64,000 nt of DNA from Polytrichum commune (taxonomy: Eukaryota > Streptophyta > Polytrichopsida > Polytrichales > Polytrichaceae): assembly GCA_950295325.1 (NCBI GenBank), contig OX485807.1, positions 52,360,440 through 52,424,439 of the forward strand, given 5' to 3'. A program made the position numbers and the translations under genes. Positions 1,061 to 58,540 of the stretch are shown here, piece after piece. The stretch's first letter is position 1. Every line of letters starts with the position of its first letter. The notes below the pieces were generated by a model. That model saw nothing but the letters and a program-made list of their open reading frames with translations, searched no databases and was not told the DNA's origin.

Positions 1061-4000
1061 TATAACAGTATTGCTCGATTGCCACAGACCTCCTCTGTAT
1101 GTAAGTGTGCAGGAGTTGACAATGTGGGTAAGTGGTAATATGCAGCTGGAGAGTGGGGTGATGGGACGATGGAGGTGACGATGGCGATGGCGATAGAGAT
1201 GGCGGTGGTGGGCTGGGGGAGTGAAGGAGCGGCGCAGCCGTGATAGATTAAAGGGGCTCTTTAGATGGGGTTCCACATGTCCTATTTCTAGGGACCAATT
1301 TGAGGCAAATTGAGCTCTTGAACCAGACCTTTTCTTGGACCCTACCTTTCAAAAATGGTTCTTTAAAACATGAGTTTTTTTTTTTTTTTTTTTAAGTTTC
1401 ATTTTTTTCCTGGTTCAGATCATTAGTGTTCCCCTCCAAAATGATGTTTTTAGATGACACCTCACTTTATTTTTTGTTGGTTTCTGACCCAGGTTTGGAC
1501 CCGTGTCTAAACCTTTGGTCCAAGTTACACAATACTCTTGATCAATGGGATCGTTCAATTTTGTTGGACCCCTCCCCCTTGCAGCCCCATTTTAAAACGC
1601 CCCAAGTCTGATTTGGTTGCTTATATGAATCATGCACCTAGGTACATGGTTTCGCGTGTGGCTCCAAGAACGGACACTAAATAGACACGTGTTTATAACA
1701 AGAGTCGACAATGTGTGCGTAAATTACGGTAGTTGTTCAAGTACGCTCTATCGTGAACATAAATTGGGAGGCACCTCTACGACCATTTACCGAACGCGAG
1801 AATCTCTTCGGTTGCGAAGAATGAGTGAGGTATTATTCGTAAGTAAGAGCCCCAAGAATTCCAAGGAAAAGTGGCCTCAATCTCGTTCGTACTCATGTCG
1901 CGTGTTTATTATGGTGGAGTGGTTGGGGAAAGTAACCATTTAAGGCGCGTGTACCTGAACCTTATTAGCAGCCTACTCACCTTGGTTATTAGGCTTCCTA
2001 TTATTATGAAGTCGCTTCCCGGGTGGTGGGCAACAGGCAGAGTGATGACACCCTCTTGAATGCCACATCGCCATAAAGGCCCTCCTTTCACGACCTCTTT
2101 ATGGCAACTTCCCTTTCCCCACCCAGCTCTTCAAGAGCTCCACATAGCATTTTGTCGCAAGGGGAACACCCACTACGGATTTAGTTAGTGCGACCCACAC
2201 TAGGTGCATTGTCCTTACGCCACCCACACTAATCGGGGCCCACACCACATGGCCAATGAACGGGGAGAGCCGACCGCTAGTTACACGTGAAGTGGTTGAG
2301 TTTGACAAATGACCACCGGCTCACGGTCCGGACTTCGGGAAAATCGCCCGTCATTTTAGAGGAGTTTAGAGAATATACCTCAAATTAATAAACAATGGCC
2401 GTATGGCAACGACTTCATCAATGTTCTTTTTGGTTGAGTTTAGGTTTGGGGATTTCGTGTGGCGAAAGAGACAAATGACGTGGCAATGGAGTGGTAGTGC
2501 TACTTGCAAACTTCGGGCACTGCACTAAGTAGTCTTATTAGTAGTGGGTGGAAAATTAGCGTGGAGATAATTAGCATGGGCCACAATGATTCTCTGGTCA
2601 AGGCGGAACCATCGTGGGTCCAAGACTACATAAAAGAAAATAATTGTCTTACATGAAAAGTAGCACAAAAACAAATAATCGGCTACACGAACTTTTTACA
2701 AAAACAATTACTATGGCTTAGGCTAATTTCTACTTGAAATTTAGCGCGGGTTGAAAATTAATGCGACCCACATTCATTCTAGTATGAGAATTATTGTTTG
2801 CATCCGAGAATTTGCATTTGTTTAGTGTGAGTGGTAGAGGGGAATTAATTTTCTTGCGAAGAGAATTTACATATTCTAAGGAGAATGTAATCATCTAAAA
2901 ATTTAATCACGCATATGAAAATTGCAACGAATTTCAAAGCATAGATTTTAGGTTTACACATAGTCGATCTATAGGTTAACCCATAATTGCTCATCTCAAT
3001 GCTACTCCTTGGCTACGATAATTGTCAATACTCTTACAGGGGTAATCAATCACGAGCTGCCACCACATAAACTTTAACTTAGTTCTCCTACAAAATATAG
3101 ATCTCATCTATGTATGCATTACATGATCCTAGTGAGTGGGTAAATGGACTTGGTCGACTATGAATGTGACGACCTTATATGACACTTGATGCTACAAGAC
3201 GAGACATAAAGACCACTATGGTTGACCTGGCACACCGATTTCAATGCCACACTAAATTGGGTGTTTAGTATACTTAATCGCCACTTTGAGCAAGGTACTT
3301 AACTTCTTCCTTAATTTTGTTTTTTTCCTTTTCTTCTTGTGTGAACACATGTAACTTAGATTGATGTTAACATGCACTTATTACTAGCTTACCTTTATTG
3401 AAACTTACATCTAATAGAAAGTTTGCCTTCATCAACAGTGAATATACAAGGAAAAACATAGGTTCCCATTGAGTGCAAACTATGCCTTTGTAAGGCAAGT
3501 GGACTTAAAATGGATAATTCTTCCAATTAGCCCATTTCACATAGGATATTAAACATGCCATTTGTATACCCAATCTAAGAAGTGGCCGGAGCCATTTCCC
3601 TCACTGTGTCTTATACGAATATCTTATTCATCATCAAAGTCAAAAATGTATTCACATTTATGAAACGATTAAGTGGATCTCTCTAATGGCTTCTATCTCA
3701 CTGAGGCTATCACACTCTGCTACTCTAGAGAACTAGTTGGCTTGAAACCATCCTTATGGATGTTTAGTCTCAATCTTTTTGTCTTTGTGAACTTTAGAAC
3801 CAGTTTCATTTCATTGAGCCTATATTGTATAACAAATTTTGAGCATGTAGTCCAATGCCTTATAACCCCTTAATGTTTTGAGCCTCAAATGTACAAGAAA
3901 ACATATTGAAGTATACTTCTATATCAAGAGCATTTCAAATGAGAAATTTCCTTTTCATTTCAAATGTTAAGTGAATGGGACTCTTCAAGGACCAAGGTTA

Positions 4001-5676
4001 TCTACAAATTTGTAATAAGGTAACTTACATGAAAGTGTGCACAATGCAAAAGTATGTATGAGGTAGGTTGACAACATCTCTCACAACTAGAATACGATTT
4101 CTAGTCCATATGATACTAGGTGTGTGATGTAGATGCCAGGAAGATATATATTGTGTGTGATTGTCGGATTTTTGACAAAGTTTTTGACATTTGACATGCA
4201 AAAACTTGCACCACAACAAACTAAACCAAACAAATAATTGTTTTTTATTAAAAGAAGAAGAAGAAGAAGAAGTCAAATTGGCAAACACAATTTAGAATTT
4301 GAAATGTAGTATGACTTGTGAAGAAGAAAAAAACACTTGTTAATTGTCACATTACAAATTGAAATGCCACATACTGCTAAGCAACTTAAGTGTAACCCAA
4401 AATTGAGGTGACACTTTAGAATATAATGCACATGTCAATTGACATTCTTTTTTGTTTTTGAAAACATAGCATGACACTTTGGATTTGAACTTGAACGCCA
4501 AATGATATTTGCCAAACAAACACATTGGGGAGGCCCATTCAAGTCCCAAAAATTTGTCTAGTTTGAACACATGTTTTTTGGGTGTGCATTCTTAGATCTA
4601 CACCTAACCATATATCAATACAATGTTGGTGTCCGAATAATATGAGTGATTGGATCGGAAACATATATCCTTGTATAATTGATCATTTTTTCCAAGGAAT
4701 AACTAACTTGCATATTTCATGACAGATGTACATTCACTTACAAGGAATTTAGTTCATGACAAATATTATGGATGGTGCAATAAAAACCTTCATGTTCCAA
4801 ATTTGTTAGCAAATGCCCAATTTTTCTTTAAATCAACAATACCCAAGCTATACAATGTTTCTCTGCATTTTCACCCTCCCCGTGATAGGCATCACTCCCG
4901 CAATTTTGGTCTTAGTAAATTATGTGATCGCAGCTAATATACCTACAACTGACCTAAGTATGATGTTGGCTTTTGTGAGGACTTCGGAGGCCCACATTTT
5001 TACACACAATTTTTGAATTCTACATCATGCATGTAAAGTAAGTGGGCCTACTTCAGTTACTTATCTTAAGTTCACACCTACATTTGAGTACTTTGTGCTT
5101 AGGTAAGTTATAGGGCTAGAAAACAAACACCAAACAAACATGTGTTACTAGAGATTGGGCTACGTGCATAAAATGTTTCATTGTTCTAGACTCACAAAAA
5201 ATAGGCCAACAAAATTTAGGGGAACTATGTGATCATCCAATGAGAGAAAGAGAATCTTCACTTTGATGATGAATTAGATATTCATATGAGCTCCAAAAAT
5301 TATGAGGAAAATGGCTAGCAACACCATTTGGATCATCATGCACTACATTGAATTTTAGTGTCATATGGTAATTTATGTCATTGTGGTAACTTTTCTAATG
5401 ACACTTCTTATGAAAGAGTTTGCAATCATTGTCGTGTATGATTAAAATTTGAGTGAAACTCGCGCCAATTATTGAAACGAAGTTTGGTGCATTCTCCATC
5501 CTAAGAAATTTTATAACGAAATATTAAGATGGATGATTGAAATTTGGATGATAACTCCCTAAGTAAGTTACAGTTAATGCAACATTGTAAATCTATAATG
5601 CCCAAATATTTTTACAAGGAATGACAAATAGTGGTAGGTTTACATTCAGCTATGTTAACATTTAGCAAGACAAATG
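1061..5676. other. Long AT-rich intergenic stretch without a recognised gene
   Basis: No open frame here shows a domain or plausible splicing. It holds poly-T runs (about 1375-1394) and a GAA run (about 4253-4272). Sequence near 4560-4640 resembles 42.1-42.2 kb (GGTGTGCATTCTTAGATC versus GGTGTGCGTTCTTGCATC), so part of it is a dispersed repeat. I see no inverted termini that define an element. Confidence 0.5.
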
Positions 5677-6508: not shown

Positions 6509-8804
6509 CTAAGATCTATCTGCTCTTGGAGTAGCCCACTCCACCCGCAAAATAAGGTTATCGTAACCATAACCATCCAATTTATTGATTGCTCGAATAG
6601 CATCCTCCCTGCACATTTACAAACGCCATTGTCAACCACAACACACCCACCCTAGTCACACAACGTGCTTGCAACTTGTCCTGTGTAACCAAAGCACAAG
6701 TTTTCATGCAACCTCCGGAAACTTGATAACTGTTATCCAAGGACATACATTACTGATGGGAGAGAACAGCAATTACCGCATTCATAACATCTCCTCAAGA
6801 TTCCCACCCAGCAATTAATCTACGAGAATGAGTACACAACCCTGATATGAACTGGACAATTCACAGCCTCCATTACAACAAAAATGTCCTGGCCATATAG
6901 CCGCTAGAATTGGACTCCCTGTCTGCAATGTTTCCAAGCCTCACTTAGCAATCATTTCAAATTCCCCACTTCAAACCATGGCATGTGAACAGAACCGTAC
7001 CGGTTAACAAAGTTGATGAAGGCAAACCCTCGGCTGAGTCCGGTTTCCCGGTCGAATGCCACATATATCCGAGATATCGCTCCAAACGGTCGGAACAACT
7101 CCTGTAGATCTTGTTCACGAGTGTCCTCTGACAAGTTTGTGACACGAATTGAGTTGTCATCTCTCCCTCTCCGCATACTCTCTCCTTCGTTGCCTTTGGC
7201 TCCTCCTCGCATGCTGGGTGGCACGTACGACCCTTTCCCACCAGGTCCTGATGACATCCCTGGGACTCCCATGTCGTCATCTGTTGGGGGCTTCTCACCT
7301 CCCACAGAGAAACCTTTTGCGATCGCCAAATCTTTGAATGGACACTTTGAGGTCCAGTGATCTCCCTTCTTTCCACAAGTCCTGCACACAATCAGGGATG
7401 CGTTCCCAAGACTTGCAAGATCTGCACCCTTCTCGGGCTCTGGTTTCGCCCCTGCCGGCCTTGTCCTCTCCAAGAAGATTTCCTCTGTGGAGACCACCGT
7501 CAGATTGTCCGATGCATTTTGACCTAGAGCATCCCCAAATTTCTTCAAAGACCGTCGCCTGATAGCAGCAGGGTTCAACTTCTTCACCTGTTCGCAAGGC
7601 AAGAAAGTCGTACAAGACGTGTCAATACACTGACAGATCCAACAAGCCTTGGACGTCTCTAAATCCTGGCTGTTTATGTGACAAACATGAGAGCCACTGC
7701 TGCACCCAAGGAGAGAAAATGGCTTCAATTCAACAAACTCCTCCTCTCTTTCATAACCCTGTTGGAACCTTGCCAACTCGGCAGTTGCTTTCAATGATAA
7801 AAACTATAGTACCATGAGTACATGTGACAAGAGGAGCTTTTGAGAAGCTGGTGCTTGCCACTCCGTGGCATTTAAGTTTCGCTCGTACTCATCGAGGTTC
7901 CCATTATTATGGTCCACCTATAATTCACCTCATGATGAAAACCCTTTCTTCAATTGAATCAATTTTGATGATTGCGTGGTGATGAAGTCTTGAGCTGCAT
8001 TACAGCATATTACACATCTCATAATACCGATGCTTCCTTTGCGTTCCCTTCAATCCATTCCGTGCAGCTAAAGAGAACGCAGCCAAACAACCATAATAAA
8101 AACTTATAGAGCCGTCCGCCATTCAAGGACAAATACAAAGCTCAGCAAACCCGGATCACGCTTACATTCCAGAAAAAGCACCGCTCGGGGTTCAAGAGAA
8201 ACTTAAAATCCCTGCCCACCGACTAAGTTTCAGGTTCATAATGTTCACATACAAACATAAGAAGACAGTATTCTTACTGGATCCATAGAATTTCACAATC
8301 AGGCCTCAGAACCTAAGAATCTAGAACTGTACAGCTCGAATTTCAAATTGACCACCACGCATCTCATGCTTCCATTGCATCTCCACAAGTCCCTCCTTGC
8401 CCAGATACACATTCCATTCTCAGCTAAGGCCAAACTGCCTGCTCTGCACGCAAAATGCTCTTATCCACTCGAGAATGGTCACCAATGCATCCCTATGTAC
8501 TATCCGAACCCATCTCTCATGCTCGCTCTCCGTCTGCCATGAAGACCACAAAACAATGTGCAATCCGAACCCTAAAACCAACCCGAGCAGGGAGAGAGAC
8601 ATGTGTTTCAAATGGTACCTGCTTCTTCACACGGACGGTCTTCGTAACCTTGGTGCGCACACCTTCCTCGTTCTTCCTCCACTCGATGATGATCTTCACG
8701 CCCTTCTCGTCGGGGCCGATGACTTGCGTGGGCGGCAACACGCCCTCCAAGCCGTCGTCTTCCTCCGCCGCATCTCCCCACCGGAAGTCCCGTCTTCCAC
8801 CCAT
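6509..8804 (-). CDS. EIF3G: Eukaryotic translation initiation factor 3 subunit G, copy A
   Basis: eIF3g is an RNA-binding subunit of the eIF3 complex, which helps recruit mRNA to the 40S ribosome in the cytosol. Three exons can be joined: 8804-8619 (62 codons, starting MGGRRDFRWG), 7587-7001 and 6608-6509, each bounded by GT and AG and with matching phases, giving about 290 residues, the usual plant length. Exon 2 has a CCHC zinc knuckle (CRTCGKKGDHWTSKC) preceded by the family segment VSTEEIFLER, then the start of the RRM: RNP2 IRVTNL and RNP1 RGFAFINF. Exon 3 completes the RRM (REDAIRAINKLDGYGYDNL, then LRVEWATP) and ends at a TAG. A longer open frame at 6952-7794 merely runs through both introns. 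The copy looks functional. The first intron is about 1 kb. Copy B is the same gene 14.7 kb away. Confidence 0.93.
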
Positions 8805-8965
8805 GGCTGAATGTGCAACTGCACAGCACGTCTACCTCTGTTTCCGATGGTCTAGCAATGCGAGCGATTCGAGTGCGTAGACTGTAGCGAAGGGACAAAT
8901 CGATGGCGATGGAACCCTAGTGTCGCTCCTCTGTGCGAGGAAGACGACTTCGCAACAAAAAACGT

Positions 8966-8974
8966 AACCCTAAC
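8966..8974 (-). promoter_or_regulatory. Telo-box-like motif upstream of eIF3g copy A
   Basis: AACCCTAAC lies about 165 bases upstream of the eIF3g start codon. Telo boxes (AAACCCTAA type) are common near the transcription start of plant genes for translation components, which fits this gene. It is a short motif, so support is modest. The same motif is at 23685-23693 in copy B. Confidence 0.4.
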
Positions 8975-9488
8975 TGAGTGAAACGGAGTCTAGCAACTCT
9001 CTGATGCCACCTCAGCTCCTTAACAGAGTGTTATGTGACGTGGAAGCCACCTCAGTGGCCATGGTGGATGAGGCGGCTGCTCAAGGTATGTAGATGTGCC
9101 TCATTCGGTGTCTCATCTTAATCGGACACCTATTTTTGAGCGATGCAGGGAAATTTGGCTGTGGATCTAAGAATGGCCACCAAGAAGACATGTGCTTGAA
9201 AAAAATTTGAATTATGTGTTTAGCATGTGTTAATCATTCTAGACGCAACAGTCAACATGAGGGGCGACGTAAATGATGATTTGATAATCAACATAACCTT
9301 ATTGTAGTTTAAAGTTACAACTACATACATCAAGGAATTTGCAATCATGTAGTCTATCTTGCATATAGATACATGAGTACATGATACACATGTGTTTTTA
9401 GTATAGCCCATTGGCATTTCTTTCCCACTGCGGCATAAGTTGTAAATGTTCTACTCTGTCATCTGTTCCTATGTTGTGCAATACGTAC

Positions 9489-51234: not shown

Positions 51235-51329
51235 AAAACACTACTTTTAGTTCCATTTTAGAATGACAAAGACCCTTTCAATGATAAGTCAAAAAAGTTA
51301 TAATCTGAATGTTAATGAGGGTTTTGTAA
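51235..51329. repeat. Left remnant of an older foldback-type arm
   Basis: TTTTAGTTCCATTTTAGAATGACAAAG-type sequence here matches 31850-31910 in the foldback element. The match resumes at 57871 on the other side of the Mutator-like element, showing that the element inserted into this older repeat. Ends with GGTTTTGTAA, the target sequence. Confidence 0.75.
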
Positions 51330-51881
51330 GGGGAGTGCTATCATGTGAGCGGTGAGCGATGAGCAGTAACTGGTGAACGGTGAGTGAGGAAAGATTTTGG
51401 GAAATACACGCACTAGTACCCTATATCCGTGGTATTTTGGCATAAATAATAATACATTTTTTCCAAAATAAAATTATTGAAGAGTTAAAAAAATGTAATT
51501 ATCCTCATGAATGCCTAACTTTATTTTTAAATTCAACAACTGCAAGCTTGGCTTGAGGGTTTGAAAAAGAATTTTAATATTGTTGTTGGATTCAACATCC
51601 AATTGTAATATCAATGCAAGCACCTTCCAAGTATTGCTTTGAACTGTATTTCTAAAATTCATGTAAGTTTGAGATATGAATTGATGGAGGTAATTAAGTT
51701 TTAGGATATAGGGTTTAGGAATAAGAGGAAATTGTTCACACAATTCAATGTTCACTAATGGTGGTAATTTAAAATGATGAATCCAAACATTGTCACACAT
51801 CCAACCAAATAATATCCAATCCAATCAAATACATAGTGGATGGTATTGACAACTACCTAAATGTCCCTAAACTAATTTAGC

Positions 51882-53690
51882 TTAATCATTTAGATCATCG
51901 CATTGAATCGCCTCATCATCTACGTACGGGTTACGGGCAATTCCTACAGATTTACGGCGAGGTGTTGGCGTCACTGATCTTGCCATGATTTGAGCAACAT
52001 TTTTAGTATATATTGGCAAACCCATATTCGGAGATGAAGTCATGTTGTTCTTTTTTCTGCGAAATAAAATTATAAGTGTTAGACTTCTAGTGCACACATA
52101 CCAGACATTGGAGGCCAAGTTAGCAAACAATATGGAGAAATTAAAAACTTACGTTTTCAATCGATTTTTTCTCGCAACCTTCTTAACAAGCTCTTCATCG
52201 GAATCGATGGAGGCATTATGTGGCATAAATCCACCTACACTAGTAGTTGGTAGTGGATCACTTAATGGGGATAGAATAGCATCAAACAATGCAGAATCTT
52301 CCTCGTATGCAACTAGATAGCGGCCACTATTTCTGCAAGCATGAATAGATGCACCTGCCAATGAAATGTTGCAATGTCAGTTAATTTGCAAAAACCACTG
52401 ACAACACTATAGTGATTTCATTAAAACACATTGAGAGATAATATAATAGGTCCTTGACTAAGAGATAAACCGACCTGTAGATGCTTAAGCATCGAGGACA
52501 ACCGATGCGGGGGTTGTTAAAGCCTCTATTAAGATTTGCATAGATTCCGAGTCCTTCTCCCTACGACCTCTCCATGACACTTTTTCATTCATGAGTTGAG
52601 TGCTCGCCAATGTGAGATTGAAGAACACATCCAAGGCCTCCACATCCACCTCAGTATTTGCGTTTCTTTTTTTAAAAATAAACTCCGATTTGGGAGTAGA
52701 ACGAAGAAACAACATGATGCGGAAACGACGAGTCTATAAACCACAAGAAAATCTTTAGCAGGGGATTCAATTGCAAAATTGAGGTGAACATTGCAATATA
52801 ATGAAAAAGTAGAAATCGAAGTAATAAATAATAGAGTTTAATATATACCGTCAATGATGTGTCAAGTGGATAACACAAAGGCAACTCGTTGAAGCCCCAC
52901 TAATCTTTTCGCAATACAAAATCATAGAAGGTTGCGAATGTCCTTATATCGTCTTTGACATCTTTCTTCTCAGGGACAAACAAAAGCAAGGGGCCATCAT
53001 CGGTGAGATATGCACATGCAAATTCAAATAGAGCCTCAATGTTCTTTCTCTTGTGGTCGTTCCAAGCTGGGATTATATGTGGAGGAGACGAAACGTTAGG
53101 TACAGGTAAACCTTTTGGCAAATCTGCAATAATAAGATCAAAACCTCCAAAATTACAATCCTCTAAAGAAACCCTCTTCTTGTGTCCGGAACCCACCTAT
53201 CAAAAGAACCAAAAAATAATAATTACACTCAAGTCCAAAGCATGTTGCAAAATCAACACCATATTTTATAAAATAAAAATAAGTTCAATGTTCAGTATAC
53301 TAACCTTAGTCACAAATTCGAATGTTTTCAACATTAACAAATTCTCATGACAACCATTCTCCATCAATGTTTGTATTGAAATCTTCTTCAACATCACTAA
53401 AGAAATTGGCCCAAAAGATGAGGCACCATTGACAATGGTTTTTGACACATCTTGAGATTGTTGTGATCTCGAAATAGGAGAAAACTTAGGTCCATCATTG
53501 CCTTGAGTGCTAGGTGTAGATGTTGAAGGATTAGGATTGCGTGCCATAATACAAATTTGAGATGAAGGTGTTGGATTACCCTCATCCACTTTTAAGCCAT
53601 GCTTACGTTTAGTTTTTCCCTCCGGTTTGACTACTTTTACCACACACACATCCTCATTGTTTATTATGTCAATATCATCAGGAGGCAAGT
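51882..53690 (-). pseudogene. Methyltransferase-like accessory gene of the Mutator-like element
   Basis: Five exons with good GT-AG sites and matching phases: 53690-53305, 53196-52849, 52733-52475, 52354-52153 and 52056-51882 (stop at 51882), about 455 codons. Exon 1 is low complexity with a KTKRKHGLK nuclear-signal-like run. Exon 2 has FDLIIADLPKGLP then AYLTDDGPLLLFVP, resembling motif IV and the following strand of SAM-dependent DNA methyltransferases, but DLPK replaces DPPY. Exons 3-4 have VVLDA-stop-ASTGASIHACRNSGRYLVAYEED, resembling motif I (DPFxGSGTT...AGR...G.E), in the beta-class order (IV before I). An in-frame TAA at 52487-52485 falls inside motif I, and a TAG lies upstream of exon 1. 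Role inferred: DNA modification or interference with silencing of the element; a catalytically dead binding protein is possible. Confidence 0.62.
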
Positions 53691-53828
53691 CTATTGGATA
53701 TGACTATTTTCTAAGCTCCTCCTCCTCACTTGAACAAAATATAAGATGACACTTAATAAATCATGGACAAGACTGCAAAGTGGCATAATCCCACTTTAAT
53801 GTGGCATAATTCCACTTTAATGGTTTTT

Positions 53829-54412
53829 TTTTGCTTCTTCATTTCTTGTTTTTGTGGACATTAATGTCTCATTTTCAGCACCTTATAAAAACAAGGGCTA
53901 GATGAACGTCATGAAATCCGTGCCCTCAACCTTTTAGAACTCCTAGAAGCTTCAATTTCAACCTTGAAGTTTTTTTATTGATATTTTTTGATGCAGTACA
54001 AACCCATCAAGCAATCCATACAACAACTCCCAAGCATACATATCAAGGCAAGATACAAGTAATGAAGATAAACAAGTGTAACAAGAAGAACAAAAACATG
54101 ACATGAAGAGGTAAGAAGAAAAACCCTAAAATTCCTAAAAACCTAGTCTCGGAACCAGAACTCACTTTGTTGAAATTTTGATATTTTTTCTTGCTTCTTC
54201 ATTTGTTGTTTTTGTGGACATTAATGTCTCATTTTCAGCACCTTATGAAAGCAAGGGCTAGGTGAAGGTGATGAAATCCGTACCCTCAACCTTTGAGAAA
54301 TCCTTGAAGCTTCAATTTCAACCTTGAAGCTACTTCATTGAAATTCTTTGATGCACTAAAATCCCATCAAGCAAACCACACAACAACTTCTAAGCATACA
54401 TATCAAGGCAAC
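53829..54412. repeat. Direct repeat between the two divergent element genes
   Basis: 53829-54049 and 54193-54412 align at high identity with a period of about 363 bases. Both start CTTCTTCATTT, contain TTTTGTGGACATTAATGTCT and end CATACATATCAAGGCAA. The pair fills the gap between the divergent 5' ends and therefore probably forms a duplicated bidirectional promoter or leader. Confidence 0.8.
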
Positions 54413-54423
54413 CTCATGTTCAT

Positions 54424-57400
54424 CCTACGTCATCCATATCTGATGTCCATGTATTAGATTCCCTCAAAATCACCAAATATCTCAGAAGATCCAAATCCGA
54501 TCTCACAAATATTGACTTCGATAATATTGCTATAGAGGATGTGAAGTATCTGCCGTCTTCTTTCAATGTGGATGTCCTTTTCATTTTGTCACCGGTCAAG
54601 ACTGGAATTCCAGATGCTTATGACAAGACAATGGATGACATGGATAAGATTTACGATGGACATGCCTGGTGCAGAACCAAAACAACAAACATTCAAAATG
54701 AATTTGGTTTGACTTTTCGGAGGTCTTCATGCGTTGGTCACCTCCAATGTCCTTACGACTTATGTGAGTATTTTTCACGAAATGGTGGAATTCGCAACTG
54801 TACTGAATGGATCGGTATTACATCCACTCCTTTCATGATTGGTACAGACCCACCAGAGAAATCTAAGGTTCAATGCAAGGTTTGTCATGCCGCTTCCATA
54901 TGTCTTGATGTTTGTTATGCAAAAATTATATACGTGCATTCACAATCGTCAAACATGTCCCGTGTTTGTATTCATTTGGGTGTTCACAACCACCCTATGT
55001 CTAGTGGAGTGTGTCGTAAGTCACTAGACATGGCTTACCAGTGTGTGGCAAATGAGGTGGCTAAAACTCCAACTGCAAAGAACTCGGCTATTATTATGGC
55101 TGCCAATAAATAATTTTTGGCTGATTACATCATCAAATTCCTACTCCTAGGAGAAAAAACCATCTTCATGGAGCATCCTTGTAGGTGGTAATGGATAAAT
55201 TCTCCACTTTGGCTTCCCTTAACTGTAGGAACTTTGTGGCGGGTTCCAAATGTTCCATTCGTAGTGGAATGGGTTCCCTGGATAGCATCATGGCGCTAAA
55301 AAACCACTATGGGTTCAAATATGTGCATGATAGTCGATTTCCAGGGCAATCCAAAGATAAGGTCTTTGTGTTCAAGATGTCTGTGGATCTTGCTGGAAGC
55401 GGAGTCAATTTGGTGAAGCGCATGCAGTATGGAGGAGACATGGAAAATTTGTGGATCATGTTTGACCATGTGAAGCGATTACGAGACTGGACTACAATGA
55501 CGTGTCATATCTACGATAGCAAACATTGCAAGGTTCTCACAATAACATGTTGTGATATGCAATCGGAGGATGCTCGGGCCCAAACCATTTTTTGGAAAAA
55601 TTTAAATGTTGTCATGTTGGAGAATGGTGTTCCCAATGTCAATTTCAAAGGATTCATGGCATACAATGCCCAAGCAAATTGGATTGATGTGAGGAAGATC
55701 TACGGGGATGGTGACCTATATGTTCCCCTCGAGGGTCGCGAACGTACATGTTTTTTTCATTGGTCTGCCAATTTGGATAAAATAACACAAAAACACATCC
55801 AACCGTCATTGCAACATGAACACAAACAATTTTGTAAAGACTACAAGGATGCCAAGAGTTTGGAGGACGCCAACATCAAATACCATGTAATACGGGCATG
55901 GTGGTTGTCATCAGGGGCAACCACCGAGGAGGGCATATACAGCTTGTCGGAATGGTTGGGGTTTTGGCATTATCGATATAGACAATGGGGAGGTCACATG
56001 CTCATTGTAAGTTTCTCCTATACACAAGTGCCCCTCCTCTATTATTGATAAAATTGTTGTGTCATCTCAATATTTAAAACTAAAAATATTCCCAATATGT
56101 ACTACTGGATCTGGCTTTGGATCAGCGTGCTAAGATGCCAACTTGCAACCTAGCAGAAACAGTACATAACAAGTGGCTACAACAATCAGGGAACAAAATG
56201 ACATACTTGTACGAGGCAACCGTGAATGACATGATCCGCGCATTCATGCAGATCGCAAATTATCGTTCTTGGCTTAAAGGGGGTTCTTCAGGGAAAAGGC
56301 CATATCAAACATCATTGAAGCTCAAAGCTGCAACACACACTGGTGATCCCAAGCTTCTTGCAGAGGCGATGAGGTCATACCCTGGGGCAGAGGATCTTAA
56401 TACAAGGAATTGTGCACTTGAGGGCTCTGAGTTGTTTGGATCAACCAAGAGAAAACTAGACTTACCACCTGGATCTGAGTATGATTCTCATCGTCCCGAC
56501 AAAGTGAACTACTCCATCCCTCACCCTAATACAAGGTCAACGAGGGCACGCATAGATGAATCCTTCAAGCGTGATGAGAATATGGTGTCTCACACCACTA
56601 ATGTGTTGGAGTTAGAGTGTCCTGAATCCCAATGGTATATTTCACGATTGCCTTATCCGTCCAAAAAAGAGTGTCAGGCATTGTAGGCCGATACTGGACA
56701 TCCATGTAGGGCTAAAGTTGGGAAAAATACACATGGCACACCTGCGCCAACGTACACAGGCATGAAAAAAAAATACCGTTCCAACAACCATGTTCCAACA
56801 AATTTTTGGTTTTGTGCAAATGACATTAATCGATGTATGAAGGGGAGCAAGAAGAAATGGGTGTTTGATTGGCCAAATCTCCCTAAGGTGTGGCCAGTGA
56901 AGGTTGGTACAAACCTTACACGGGAGGAGGTGTTTGCATTGGAAGATGTTGGGTTTCAACTGCAACAGAAAGAGGCACTGTCACCACGTCGTCAATTGAG
57001 AACAATGACAAACCTCCCCATCCCTCGTTCACATTTTTGTGTTCCTCCAAACCCAAATGCGCATCCAAACACACGGTTTTCTAAGGCAGTTCGACGGAAC
57101 ATGGCAGCACCATTATTAGAGTACAGGAATAAATGGGAGAGCACATTACACATGGATGGGTATTATGTGGTTGGTGTGACTCCCATTCCATACCCTGGAT
57201 ACGGATGCATCATAACCATAGTTTCCAAAGAAGAGAAGACATACCTTGTCTTCATTGCAGATATTCCACAATGCACTTGCCCGAACTTTGCGAAAATGTT
57301 GTCTTTGGCAGTTGGAAAAAGGGGTCAGTGGGTTTCATGCAAGCACTTGTATTACGTGTTCAGGTATTTGTGCAAGGTTGACTACGCCACTGACAAGTTC

Positions 57401-57439
57401 ATTCATGCACCGACATTCAGCTACAATGAGGTGATGTGA
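54424..57439 (+). pseudogene. Mutator-like transposase with zinc-binding N-terminus and SWIM finger
   Basis: The coding blocks are 54424-55113, about 55143-56006 and about 56111-57439. Block 1 has a Cys/His-rich WRKY/GCM-like DNA-binding region (GHLQCPYDLCEYF, VQCKVCHAASICLDVCYAK, RVCIHLGVHNHP). Block 2 is the DDE-type core (NLWIMFDHVKRLRDW, CDMQSEDARAQ, FKGFMAYNAQANW, ERTCFFHWSANLDK). The second catalytic Asp is expected where FMAY has Tyr. Block 3 ends with a SWIM zinc finger (CTCPNFAKM...WVSCKHLYYV). Defects are a TAA at 55111, a frameshift near 55140, a TAG at 55182 and a TAG at 56684; the reading resumes in frame after the last. An intron donor GTAAGT is at 56007; its acceptor is unclear. 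The gene lies divergent to the methyltransferase-like gene. Confidence 0.8.
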
Positions 57440-57870
57440 CTTCTTGAGCTCGCGGGTGTTGCAGAAGAGGCATAGTGGCATAGGGGTGAAGGGCATGGAC
57501 GCAATTATTCATCATTTTTACATATATAGAAATAGTTGTGTATATCCATATGAAATTTATGTAGTACAAACTGATGGTACAACTAAATAGTTGTTTGTCA
57601 CAATAAAGTGCTCGACATTTCAATGCCGTACTTGACATGTCAATAAAATGCCTATCACCGTGGATCAACAAACTTCCTGAAATCCATGGTAATAGGGCCG
57701 AGTTCAATACATTTTTTTTCCCACAATTTTGTTTTCATAATATATAATCCAACTATATTGGAATGTTTTCTTTTAAAATCCTATTATTGGTCATTTTTTT
57801 GTTGACTGCTCACATGTTACCGCTCACTGCGCACTGCTCACCGCTCAACGCTCACATGCTAGCTTCCCTC

Positions 57871-58540
57871 GGTTTTGTAATGTCTTTAACTTTCCAAGTA
57901 AACTTTATGTCTCATTGATGGCTTCACTTCGAAAATGTAATCTCTCGGGGGGGGGGGGGGGTAGTCATTGGTTGGAGTAGCAATATACGTGCGAACAAAT
58001 GATAGGGTATTTAAAAAACATGGGGGCAAAAAATTATAATTGGACTTAAGAGTAATATAGGGTATCAAAAATGGCACTGGACATCTTTAAAGTACTATAG
58101 GGTATGGAATAATAGGTAATTTGGAATTATAAGTAATGCAAACCATTTTTATATTAACCCAAAGTAGAAATTTACATAATGATAGCATGTGAAAAAAAAA
58201 ATTGAAAGTAATACCCCCCTATATAATAGTGGTTGTTCGCATCTATATCCTTAACTTTTTAACACAGTGCCCCCCCCCCCCCGAGTGTAATCTCAATAAA
58301 TAGCTTATTACTCAACGGAAGTGAACACATATATTGGATTCTGGACCTTGAATATGAAGTGCACTTAATATGGGTTACATGAACAAGTGGTCTTCAAGAA
58401 TGCAAGGGCAATTATATTTTTTGAAGTCGGGTAGAGTGGACAACAATTTCGGTCGGGATATGAAAATTTTGGATTTGTTTTGTGAGGGTTGCCTGGAGGT
58501 GCCGGATCACGGGCCTCAGCCCCTATCCACTTCCTTTTTG
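57871..58540. repeat. Right remnant of the older foldback-type arm
   Basis: After the target duplication the sequence TGTCTTTAACTTTCCAAGT continues the arm (compare 31930 onward), is interrupted by the G-run element, then resumes at 58286 with ATATTGGATT(C/T)TGGACCTTGAA (compare 32030 and 32505). It includes the short frame at 58370-58597, which is a non-coding remnant of the arm. Confidence 0.75.
57944..58285. mobile_element. 342-base element with homopolymer G/C terminal inverted repeats
   Basis: It begins CTCGGGGGGGGGGGG and ends CCCCCCCCCCCGAG, so the inverted repeats are CTC plus a run of about 14 G. The target duplication is TGTAATCT(C) at 57936-57944 and 58286-58294 (8 bases if the first C belongs to the element, 9 otherwise). 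The interior is AT-rich without coding capacity. It interrupts the older foldback arm, whose halves align on either side. Confidence 0.82.

Follow-up and report, generated by a model that had tools for sequence, protein, structure and literature searches.

The closest described systems to the one reported here are found on algal DNA transposons. In the brown-algal element Sola1-1_Ec32, an accessory gene lying opposite the transposase encodes ParB-like and N4-cytosine/N6-adenine (N4C/N6A) methyltransferase domains, and similar accessory genes are mentioned for green and red algal transposons (PMC12477816). Binding and modification of its own element have been proposed there for the Sola1-1_Ec32 accessory protein (PMC12477816). 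The present work concerns a transposon family of the land plant Polytrichum commune, one copy of which occupies positions 51330-57870 of a 64,000-nucleotide (nt) stretch of DNA (G000:C5:52360440-52424439, hereafter the window) in a searched genome of 407.8 Mb. Longer copies of the family carry two divergent genes, a transposase and a predicted multidomain partner that joins a ParB/sulfiredoxin-like domain and a linker to a small conserved domain and a beta-class amino-methyltransferase fold. The sequence comparisons point, tentatively, to a partner that acts as a sequence-specific DNA-binding regulator of the copies of its own family and not as an active methyltransferase.

Like Sola1-1_Ec32, the present family is a DNA transposon with an accessory gene opposite the transposase, predicted to combine a putative ParB-like domain with an amino-methyltransferase domain, and with a proposed binding of the protein to its own element. 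Unlike the algal systems, with which it is compared by description only, it occurs in a land plant, has a transposase with a SWIM-like end, makes 10-bp target duplications, and is neither Sola1 nor EnSpm; it also comprises hundreds of ends and several subfamilies, has lost the catalytic motif, and contains palindromic arrays. The family is thus new with respect to the known algal kind in its land-plant host, its different transposase, its lost catalytic motif, and its palindromes, and no published report of it was found in the literature library searched. The preliminary description of this locus had called a methyltransferase relative inside a eukaryotic DNA transposon unusual, a statement that needs correction because ParB and N4C/N6A methyltransferase accessory genes have been reported in algal DNA transposons (PMC12477816).

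VANDAL21 carries arrays of short motifs in its introns and noncoding regions, and VANC binds to them (PMC5735166). As in VANDAL21/Hiun of Arabidopsis, the accessory gene of the present family lies beside the transposase, and family-specific short motifs occur in noncoding tandem repeats and introns; set against the published description of VANC, the two differ in that anti-silencing is experimental there and deduced here, and in that the motifs are palindromic here (PMC5735166). The comparison with VANDAL and VANC is an analogy only. With the beta-class N6-adenine methyltransferases CcrM and M.BceJIV, the partner shares the fold and the order of motif IV before motif I, but its motif IV is not DPPY, it resides on a eukaryotic transposon, and introns split most of the copies read. 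DNA-modification genes on mobile elements are also represented by the TET/JBP dioxygenases of fungal DNA transposons (PMC12730594) and by DNMT- or Dam-bearing retrotransposons (PMC5890265); the enzyme classes and element types in these cases are different.

The Methyltransferase-Like Part of the Partner

Exon 2 of the partner gene has at least 150 scored matches in the genome (1106 candidates); whole-genome protein counts are lower bounds throughout, part of the candidates having been scored. The Pfam profile N6_N4_Mtase (PF01555) matches the METHYLTRANSFERASE part of a 577-amino-acid (aa) frame of the relative L023 above the cut-off (E 6.7e-7, profile positions 163-216), and a sister frame at C1:9662150 is matched across positions 1-216, whereas the spliced partner reading of the window remains below the cut-off (E 0.0036). 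A structure model of the L023 frame, built from 36 rows, has a mean predicted local distance difference test score (pLDDT) of 52.7; within residues 311-520, 15 of 21 ten-residue blocks reach at least 70 and the others lie at 50-69. Foldseek listed 102 chains for this model at E<=0.001 (best 1.4e-11), and the first 44 rows are DNA amino-methyltransferases. In VIA, CcrM was matched at Z 20.2 (root-mean-square deviation 3.1, 223 residues) and M.BceJIV at Z 20.1, with MTA1 and METTL3 lower, at Z 11.7-13.1. According to the model, the C-terminal part of the partner is a beta-class amino-methyltransferase fold of the Rossmann type with the motif order IV-I. The preliminary description had named a fold other than a Rossmann methyltransferase as a finding that would speak against its reading of the gene; the predicted fold of L023, a relative of the window copy, agrees with that reading.

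The catalytic signature (D/N/S)PP(Y/F/W) is present in none of the 18 aligned rows that cover motif IV. Its place is taken by DLPEG (5 rows), DIPEN (3), DIPDG (2), EYPDG (2), and, in one row each, DIPEG, DISEN, DIPYG, DVPED, QFPDG, and NLPGG. None of the 18 rows has proline at position 2, only L026 has an aromatic residue at position 4, and in 4 of the 18 the motif starts with E, Q, or N. These rows are not independent, as L031-L033, and likewise L023, L026, and L027, are close copies. A bdelloid N4C methyltransferase (N4CMT) loses its activity when SPPY is altered to APPA (PMC8885841). Since motif IV is lost and such a change kills the bdelloid enzyme, methylation of the usual kind is improbable, and the partner probably does not methylate in the usual way.

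The marking of DNA by methylation, which had been put forward earlier for this element, finds no support in motif IV. An unlikely alternative is that the partner still methylates N6-adenine or N4-cytosine by means of an unusual motif IV and marks the ends or promoter of the element. It would fit the beta-class fold with its strong similarity to CcrM, the PF01555 match of the 577-aa frame, and the motif I-like D...TG and acidic motif II seen in most aligned rows, and the same role has been proposed for the ParB-methyltransferase proteins of algal transposons (PMC12477816). The 18 rows without the signature, some of them close copies, and the inactivated bdelloid enzyme argue against it.

No relatives of the methyltransferase domain were found in viral contigs with close-match patterns or in phages with tblastn, genome contigs, plasmids, and metagenomes lying outside the search. 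Two small contigs of the assembly, C10 and C12, contain open frames that match N6_N4_Mtase strongly (98.5 and 68 bits); these contigs are probably bacterial contamination.

The ParB-Like Exon and Further Domains

A conserved exon located 2-6 kb upstream of the methyltransferase part carries the motifs CRxxPxPxVRP and [DE]GNHRxxAW. The second is of the GxxR type; its G, N, and H occur in all 8 rows and its R in 6 of them. The exon has at least 150 scored matches in the genome (1021 candidates) and is present in 12 of the 16 element copies searched, in some of them with stops; it was not found in L012, L014, L015, and L019. In E5, E1, and E7, the strand that faces the transposase carries first the ParB-like and then the methyltransferase exons, which suggests that the ParB-like domain, the linker, the small conserved domain, and the methyltransferase exons form one protein.

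The model of the ParB-like exon (pLDDT 65.9) gave no Foldseek match at E<=0.001; sulfiredoxins account for 10 of the 25 chains listed, including the top two, none of them significant. All six entries listed by VIA are ParB or sulfiredoxin (Srx) structures, Noc standing first at Z 6.5 and the sulfiredoxins at 4.6-5.3, all with Z <8. No other convincing fold appears in either list, which does not establish the absence of one. The exon is accordingly described as ParB/sulfiredoxin-like with reserve. Pfam gave no match above the cut-off for the exon, for the transposase pieces, or for the spliced partner of the window. In phages, tblastn with the ParB-like domain returned a 45-aa match at E 0.7 only, the search having the scope given above.

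E1 and E5, which represent one subfamily, contain protein kinase frames on the partner strand between the transposase and the ParB-like exon (E5: 8109-9218, L023/L024; E1: L025), and PF00069 matches two E5 frames joined over a stop at E 1.5e-9. No kinase frames were recognised among those of E7.

Copies of the Family and Their Ends

The 21-base end patterns of the element occur exactly 264 times (partner side) and 242 times (transposase side) in the genome, and reversed patterns used as a control occur 0 times. L015, E7, and L052 share these ends, and each is flanked by an exact 10-bp duplication of its own; chance or artefact is ruled out because the family recurs with independent target duplications. 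L015 (C4), a sister copy 6.9 kb long, has the duplication GTGGCCAACT and both ends and retains parts of both genes. L011, a longer copy belonging like the window copy to subfamily A, has in addition a ParB-like exon, which lies upstream of its methyltransferase exons. Of the copies seen, E7 (C5:18461972-18475557, 13586 bp, duplication GTTACAATGT) is the most complete; its two transposase frames, 741 and 455 aa long, are open, and so are the six putative exon frames found in a row on the partner strand. No 10-bp target duplication was found in E1 or E5.

Among the places listed on C1 and C2 (100 and 89 places), 58 elements could be paired by their ends, the pairing leaving out 11 listed transposase-side ends outside the range of the other list. 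At least 34 of these 58 hold a transposase, and at least 25 of the 34 also hold a partner exon among the listed places; of the remaining nine, L053 and L054 were read, and each contains ParB-like as well as methyltransferase exons. The pairs with a transposase are mostly 11-13 kb long. The preliminary description had taken same-ended copies lacking the minus-strand gene as a point that would speak against the association. Such copies are partly borne out. The longer copies keep both genes; 17 of the 58 elements measure less than 8 kb, and for 15 of these 17 neither a transposase nor a partner exon is listed. L052 (C1:77676860-77683345, 6.46 kb, exact duplication ACGTGTGTGC), the one short element read, lacks the methyltransferase part, keeps the ParB-like exon and a linker exon, and has a broken transposase as well. 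A group of 14 listed end pairs, L052 included, measures 5.6-7.1 kb and has no listed transposase or partner exon.

The family likely belongs to the Mutator superfamily, as judged from duplication length, ends, and the SWIM-like end in the absence of any transposase profile match. The 10-bp duplications of the window copy, L015, E7, and L052 fall within the 8-11 bp of Mutator-like elements, and terminal inverted repeats are present. The residues D...D...CxxH and a SWIM-like CxC...CxH were recognised by eye in the transposase. For the SWIM finger announced earlier, the profile PF04434 stays below the Pfam cut-off (E 0.21 and 0.039; 11.6 and 14.0 bits vs 19.6). The Pfam MULE domain has no match in the transposase pieces, none of 150 scored genome places of PF10551 is found 3 kb or less from a listed transposase, and hhalign against canonical Mutator-like elements of the same genome gave nothing, with profiles of an effective depth of only 1.1-1.7. 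In L014, a divergent relative of the transposase (3431-4855; 42-45% identical) runs in the same direction as the partner gene and is probably a nested element.

The two ends differ in the same manner in the window copy, L015, and E7 (GGGGAGTGCT vs GAGGGAAGCT) and may therefore be read by different proteins. This, together with the joint retention of partner and transposase, would suit a transposition cofactor, similar to mudrB or VANB, that binds or bridges the heptamer ends without an epigenetic role. Such a cofactor is improbable, to about the same degree as the active methyltransferase: the palindromic arrays of the family are internal, in the promoter region and introns, and not terminal, and L052 is flanked by an exact duplication although its methyltransferase part is missing, a copy that may, however, have been moved in trans.

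Palindromic Repeats in Noncoding Regions

Tandem arrays were found in the region separating the genes, or else upstream of the ParB-like exon, in 11 of 15 scanned sequences (E7, E5, E1, L011, L012, L013, L015, L016, L017, L018, and L022). In L020 the tandem arrays are in introns, in L019 the array is placed ambiguously, and the scan called none in the window or L021. The repeat units vary among subfamilies, and several are built on perfect palindromes. E7 has 13 copies of the palindrome P1 (GTTTGGGTCG-NN-CGACCCAAAC), three of them within the transposase intron, and a second palindrome, P2 (CCTGTGCGTTAACGCACAGG). Other palindromes are found in L016 and L017 (GGTTTCGGTACCGAAACC), in E1 and E5 (TTGTGCGC-NN-GCGCACAA), and in L020 (GTGTCTCGG-NN-CCGAGACAC).

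Palindromes were counted over each whole stretch, including flanks and unrepeated ones, and compared with a shuffle that moved two-base blocks only; the observed and shuffled counts are 20/1.2 in E7, 7/0.7 in L016, 8/1.0 in L020, 8/0.7 in L021, 7/1.1 in L022, 4/1.1 in E1, and 3/1.1 in L017. Lower values were obtained for the window (2/0.5), L015 (2/0.9), L018 (2/1.1), E5 (2/1.4), L012 (1/1.1), L013 (1/0.7), L011 (0/0.8), and L019 (0/0.8).

P2 has 490 sites in the genome; of the first 50, 44 fall within end-paired elements, against 0.3 expected from length. The palindrome of subfamily B (GGGTTTCGG-NN-CCGAAACCC) has 35 sites (reversed control 1) in 16 clusters, at least 8 of which are within 10 kb of a listed exon-2 place. 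P1 has 9231 genome sites (reversed control 0) in arrays of varied spacing. In both off-family places read (L050:3089-7888, L051:4228-5266), it precedes genes unmatched by the family queries, which excludes P1 as a family-specific operator and as proof of a family-specific system; P1 may be a host or shared operator site. The genes behind P1 in L050 and L051 have related long frames and perhaps belong to another mobile element.

Linkage and Selection

A scored transposase (141 of 2013 candidates were scored) lies within 30 kb of 30 of the 150 listed exon-2 places, and 26 of these 30 pairs are divergent, with a mean of 1.8 and a maximum of 6 in shifted controls. The divergent near pairs comprise 22 of 22 among the first 60 exon-2 rows and 4 of 8 among the other 90. 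For PF01555 (n=80, the 3 rows of contigs C10 and C12 being excluded), 13 rows are near a transposase and 11 divergent (shifted 1.0, maximum 4). The other 120 exon-2 and 67 PF01555 places have no scored transposase nearby.

By the Nei-Gojobori method, the ratio of nonsynonymous to synonymous substitution rates (dN/dS) for exon 2 amounts to 0.13 when L011 (A) is compared with L016 (B) and to 0.16 for L018 and L019, two diverged copies of subfamily C; for exon 3 it is 0.21 between L011 and L016. Many other between-subfamily pairs are saturated in dS and uninformative. Close copies, in which changes are few, give 0.24-2.4 for exon 2, 0.09-1.04 for exon 3, and 0.49-0.89 for the 577-aa frame. The partner gene is under purifying selection between subfamilies, and the low values between and high values within subfamilies imply that the protein was retained while the subfamilies diverged and that copies drift after insertion. 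Linkage to the transposase above shifted controls and purifying selection indicate that the partner is no passenger, and its divergent linkage and selection also rule out a host gene adjoining the transposon. A functionless captured cargo (Pack-MULE-like) or unrelated neighbour, for which the documented gene capture by such elements (PMC6446971) and the broken window copy could be quoted, is very improbable and largely refuted by selection and linkage, the partner being present in copies down to about 42-45% identity.

Proposed Mode of Action

In the mechanism that we favour, tentatively, the partner would bind DNA sequence-specifically and act on the copies of its own family. Its probable binding sites would be the palindromic repeats of the shared promoter region and introns, and possibly the heptamer ends. 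Binding may counteract silencing or promote expression, leaving the element expressed or visible to its transposase, and the methyltransferase fold would serve as a part that binds S-adenosylmethionine (SAM) or reads DNA, not as the catalyst. The working would resemble that of VANC on VANDAL elements, with different proteins; a VANC-like role is suggested by the two DNA-handling folds, the lost catalytic motif, and the repeated short motifs in the promoter region and introns. A more specific version, a ParB/parS-like system, is held to be quite unlikely as a whole: the ParB-type domain would load at the family palindromes of the shared promoter region, the non-catalytic methyltransferase fold would read or hold DNA, the protein would shield the element from silencing, and palindromes and protein would change together by subfamily.

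Several observations weigh against a sequence-specific regulator. Subfamily A, including the window copy, has an imperfect palindrome only and no excess, and there is little or no palindrome excess in L012, L013, L015, L018, L019, and E5. No partner exon is nearby, among the matches listed, at 8 of the 16 clusters of the B palindrome, and P1 stands before non-family genes. The ParB-like assignment depends on a model of modest pLDDT, a best Z of 6.5, and one motif. L052, which lacks the methyltransferase part, still has its exact duplication, the two genes do not diverge in 4 of the 30 near exon-2 pairs or in 2 of the 13 near pairs of PF01555, and the within-subfamily exon-2 dN/dS of up to 2.4 shows copies that drift.

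The Copy in the Window

The element in the window is bounded by an exact 10-bp target duplication, GGTTTTGTAA, at 51320-51329 and 57871-57880. Its inverted repeats are asymmetric, with GGGGAGTGCTATCATGTGAGC at the partner-gene end vs GAGGGAAGCTAGCATGTGAGC (reverse complement) at the transposase end; both lead into GGTGAGC-like heptamers, and 45 nt of inverted repeat are paired at 80%. The repeat of the partner-gene side, with its heptamer array, covers 51330-51385 (+ strand) and that of the transposase side 57804-57870 (- strand), each with the 21-base pattern counted above. The terminal inverted repeats, the duplication given as 9-10 bp, and the two divergent genes of the preliminary description are confirmed with exact coordinates.

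The coding remains are a transposase on the + strand (54394-57436) and a multi-exon partner gene on the - strand (51885-53793). By homology, the partner consists of exon 1, the domain preceding the methyltransferase part (53305-53793, stops at 53704-53706 and 53761-53763); exon 2 (52849-53196), with the motif IV DLPKG at 53110-53124 and a stop at 52900-52902; exon 3 (52473-52733), with the motif I region at 52473-52493 and a stop at 52485-52487; exon 4 (52158-52355), with a motif II-like YLVAYEED; and exon 5, a C-terminal tail (51885-52055). The translation thus meets four in-frame stops, at 53761, 53704, 52900, and 52485. The gene had been described as carrying DLPKG followed by DxxASTG; the multi-exon structure and motif order hold, but the stop at 52485 falls within the motif read as DxxASTG.

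The transposase comprises an N-terminal part with a Cys/His region recognised by eye (54394-55110), a DDE-like part (55185-56006) in which the presumed second catalytic Asp is replaced at codon 55662 (residues by eye), a part following the intron, by homology (56090-56683), and a C-terminal part (56687-57436) with the SWIM-like CxC...CxH at 57272-57346. It has in-frame stops at 55111 and 56684 and a frame shift between 55113 and 55185. Since both genes contain stops and the transposase changes frame, the copy is dead, and a functional element in the window is ruled out. Neither the ParB-like exon (best E 9.7) nor the N-terminal 185 aa of the E7 transposase (best E 1.4) has a match in the window element, which is a dead, internally deleted derivative of a larger element. 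Between the genes, a remnant of 360-bp tandem units lies at 53824-54411, with the imperfect palindrome AGTCTCGG-NN-CCAGAACT at 54145-54162; the repeat has 6.3 units in L011, 2.6 in L012 and L015, and <2 in the window.

Directly beyond the element, at window positions 57944-58285, long G and C runs stand in inverted order 310 nt apart (CTCGGGGGGGGGGGGG / CCCCCCCCCCCCCGAG) and are perhaps the ends of another small element. Elsewhere in the assembly, RuBisCO large-subunit fragments occur in nuclear contigs (G000:C3:14137891-14138196, C2:70106055-70106189) and are probably plastid DNA insertions. A plastid-like contig, C8, codes for an RbcL of 475 aa that looks like the protein of a land plant.

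Implications

If the favoured reading of the partner as a DNA-binding regulator is true, bacterial partition and methyltransferase folds would have been recast as the regulator of a land-plant transposon, beside the VANC solution in Arabidopsis. With several pairs of palindrome and protein and hundreds of ends in one genome, the recognition of self versus non-self copies would be directly testable. The family would also allow one to test whether a methyltransferase fold can serve without methylation.

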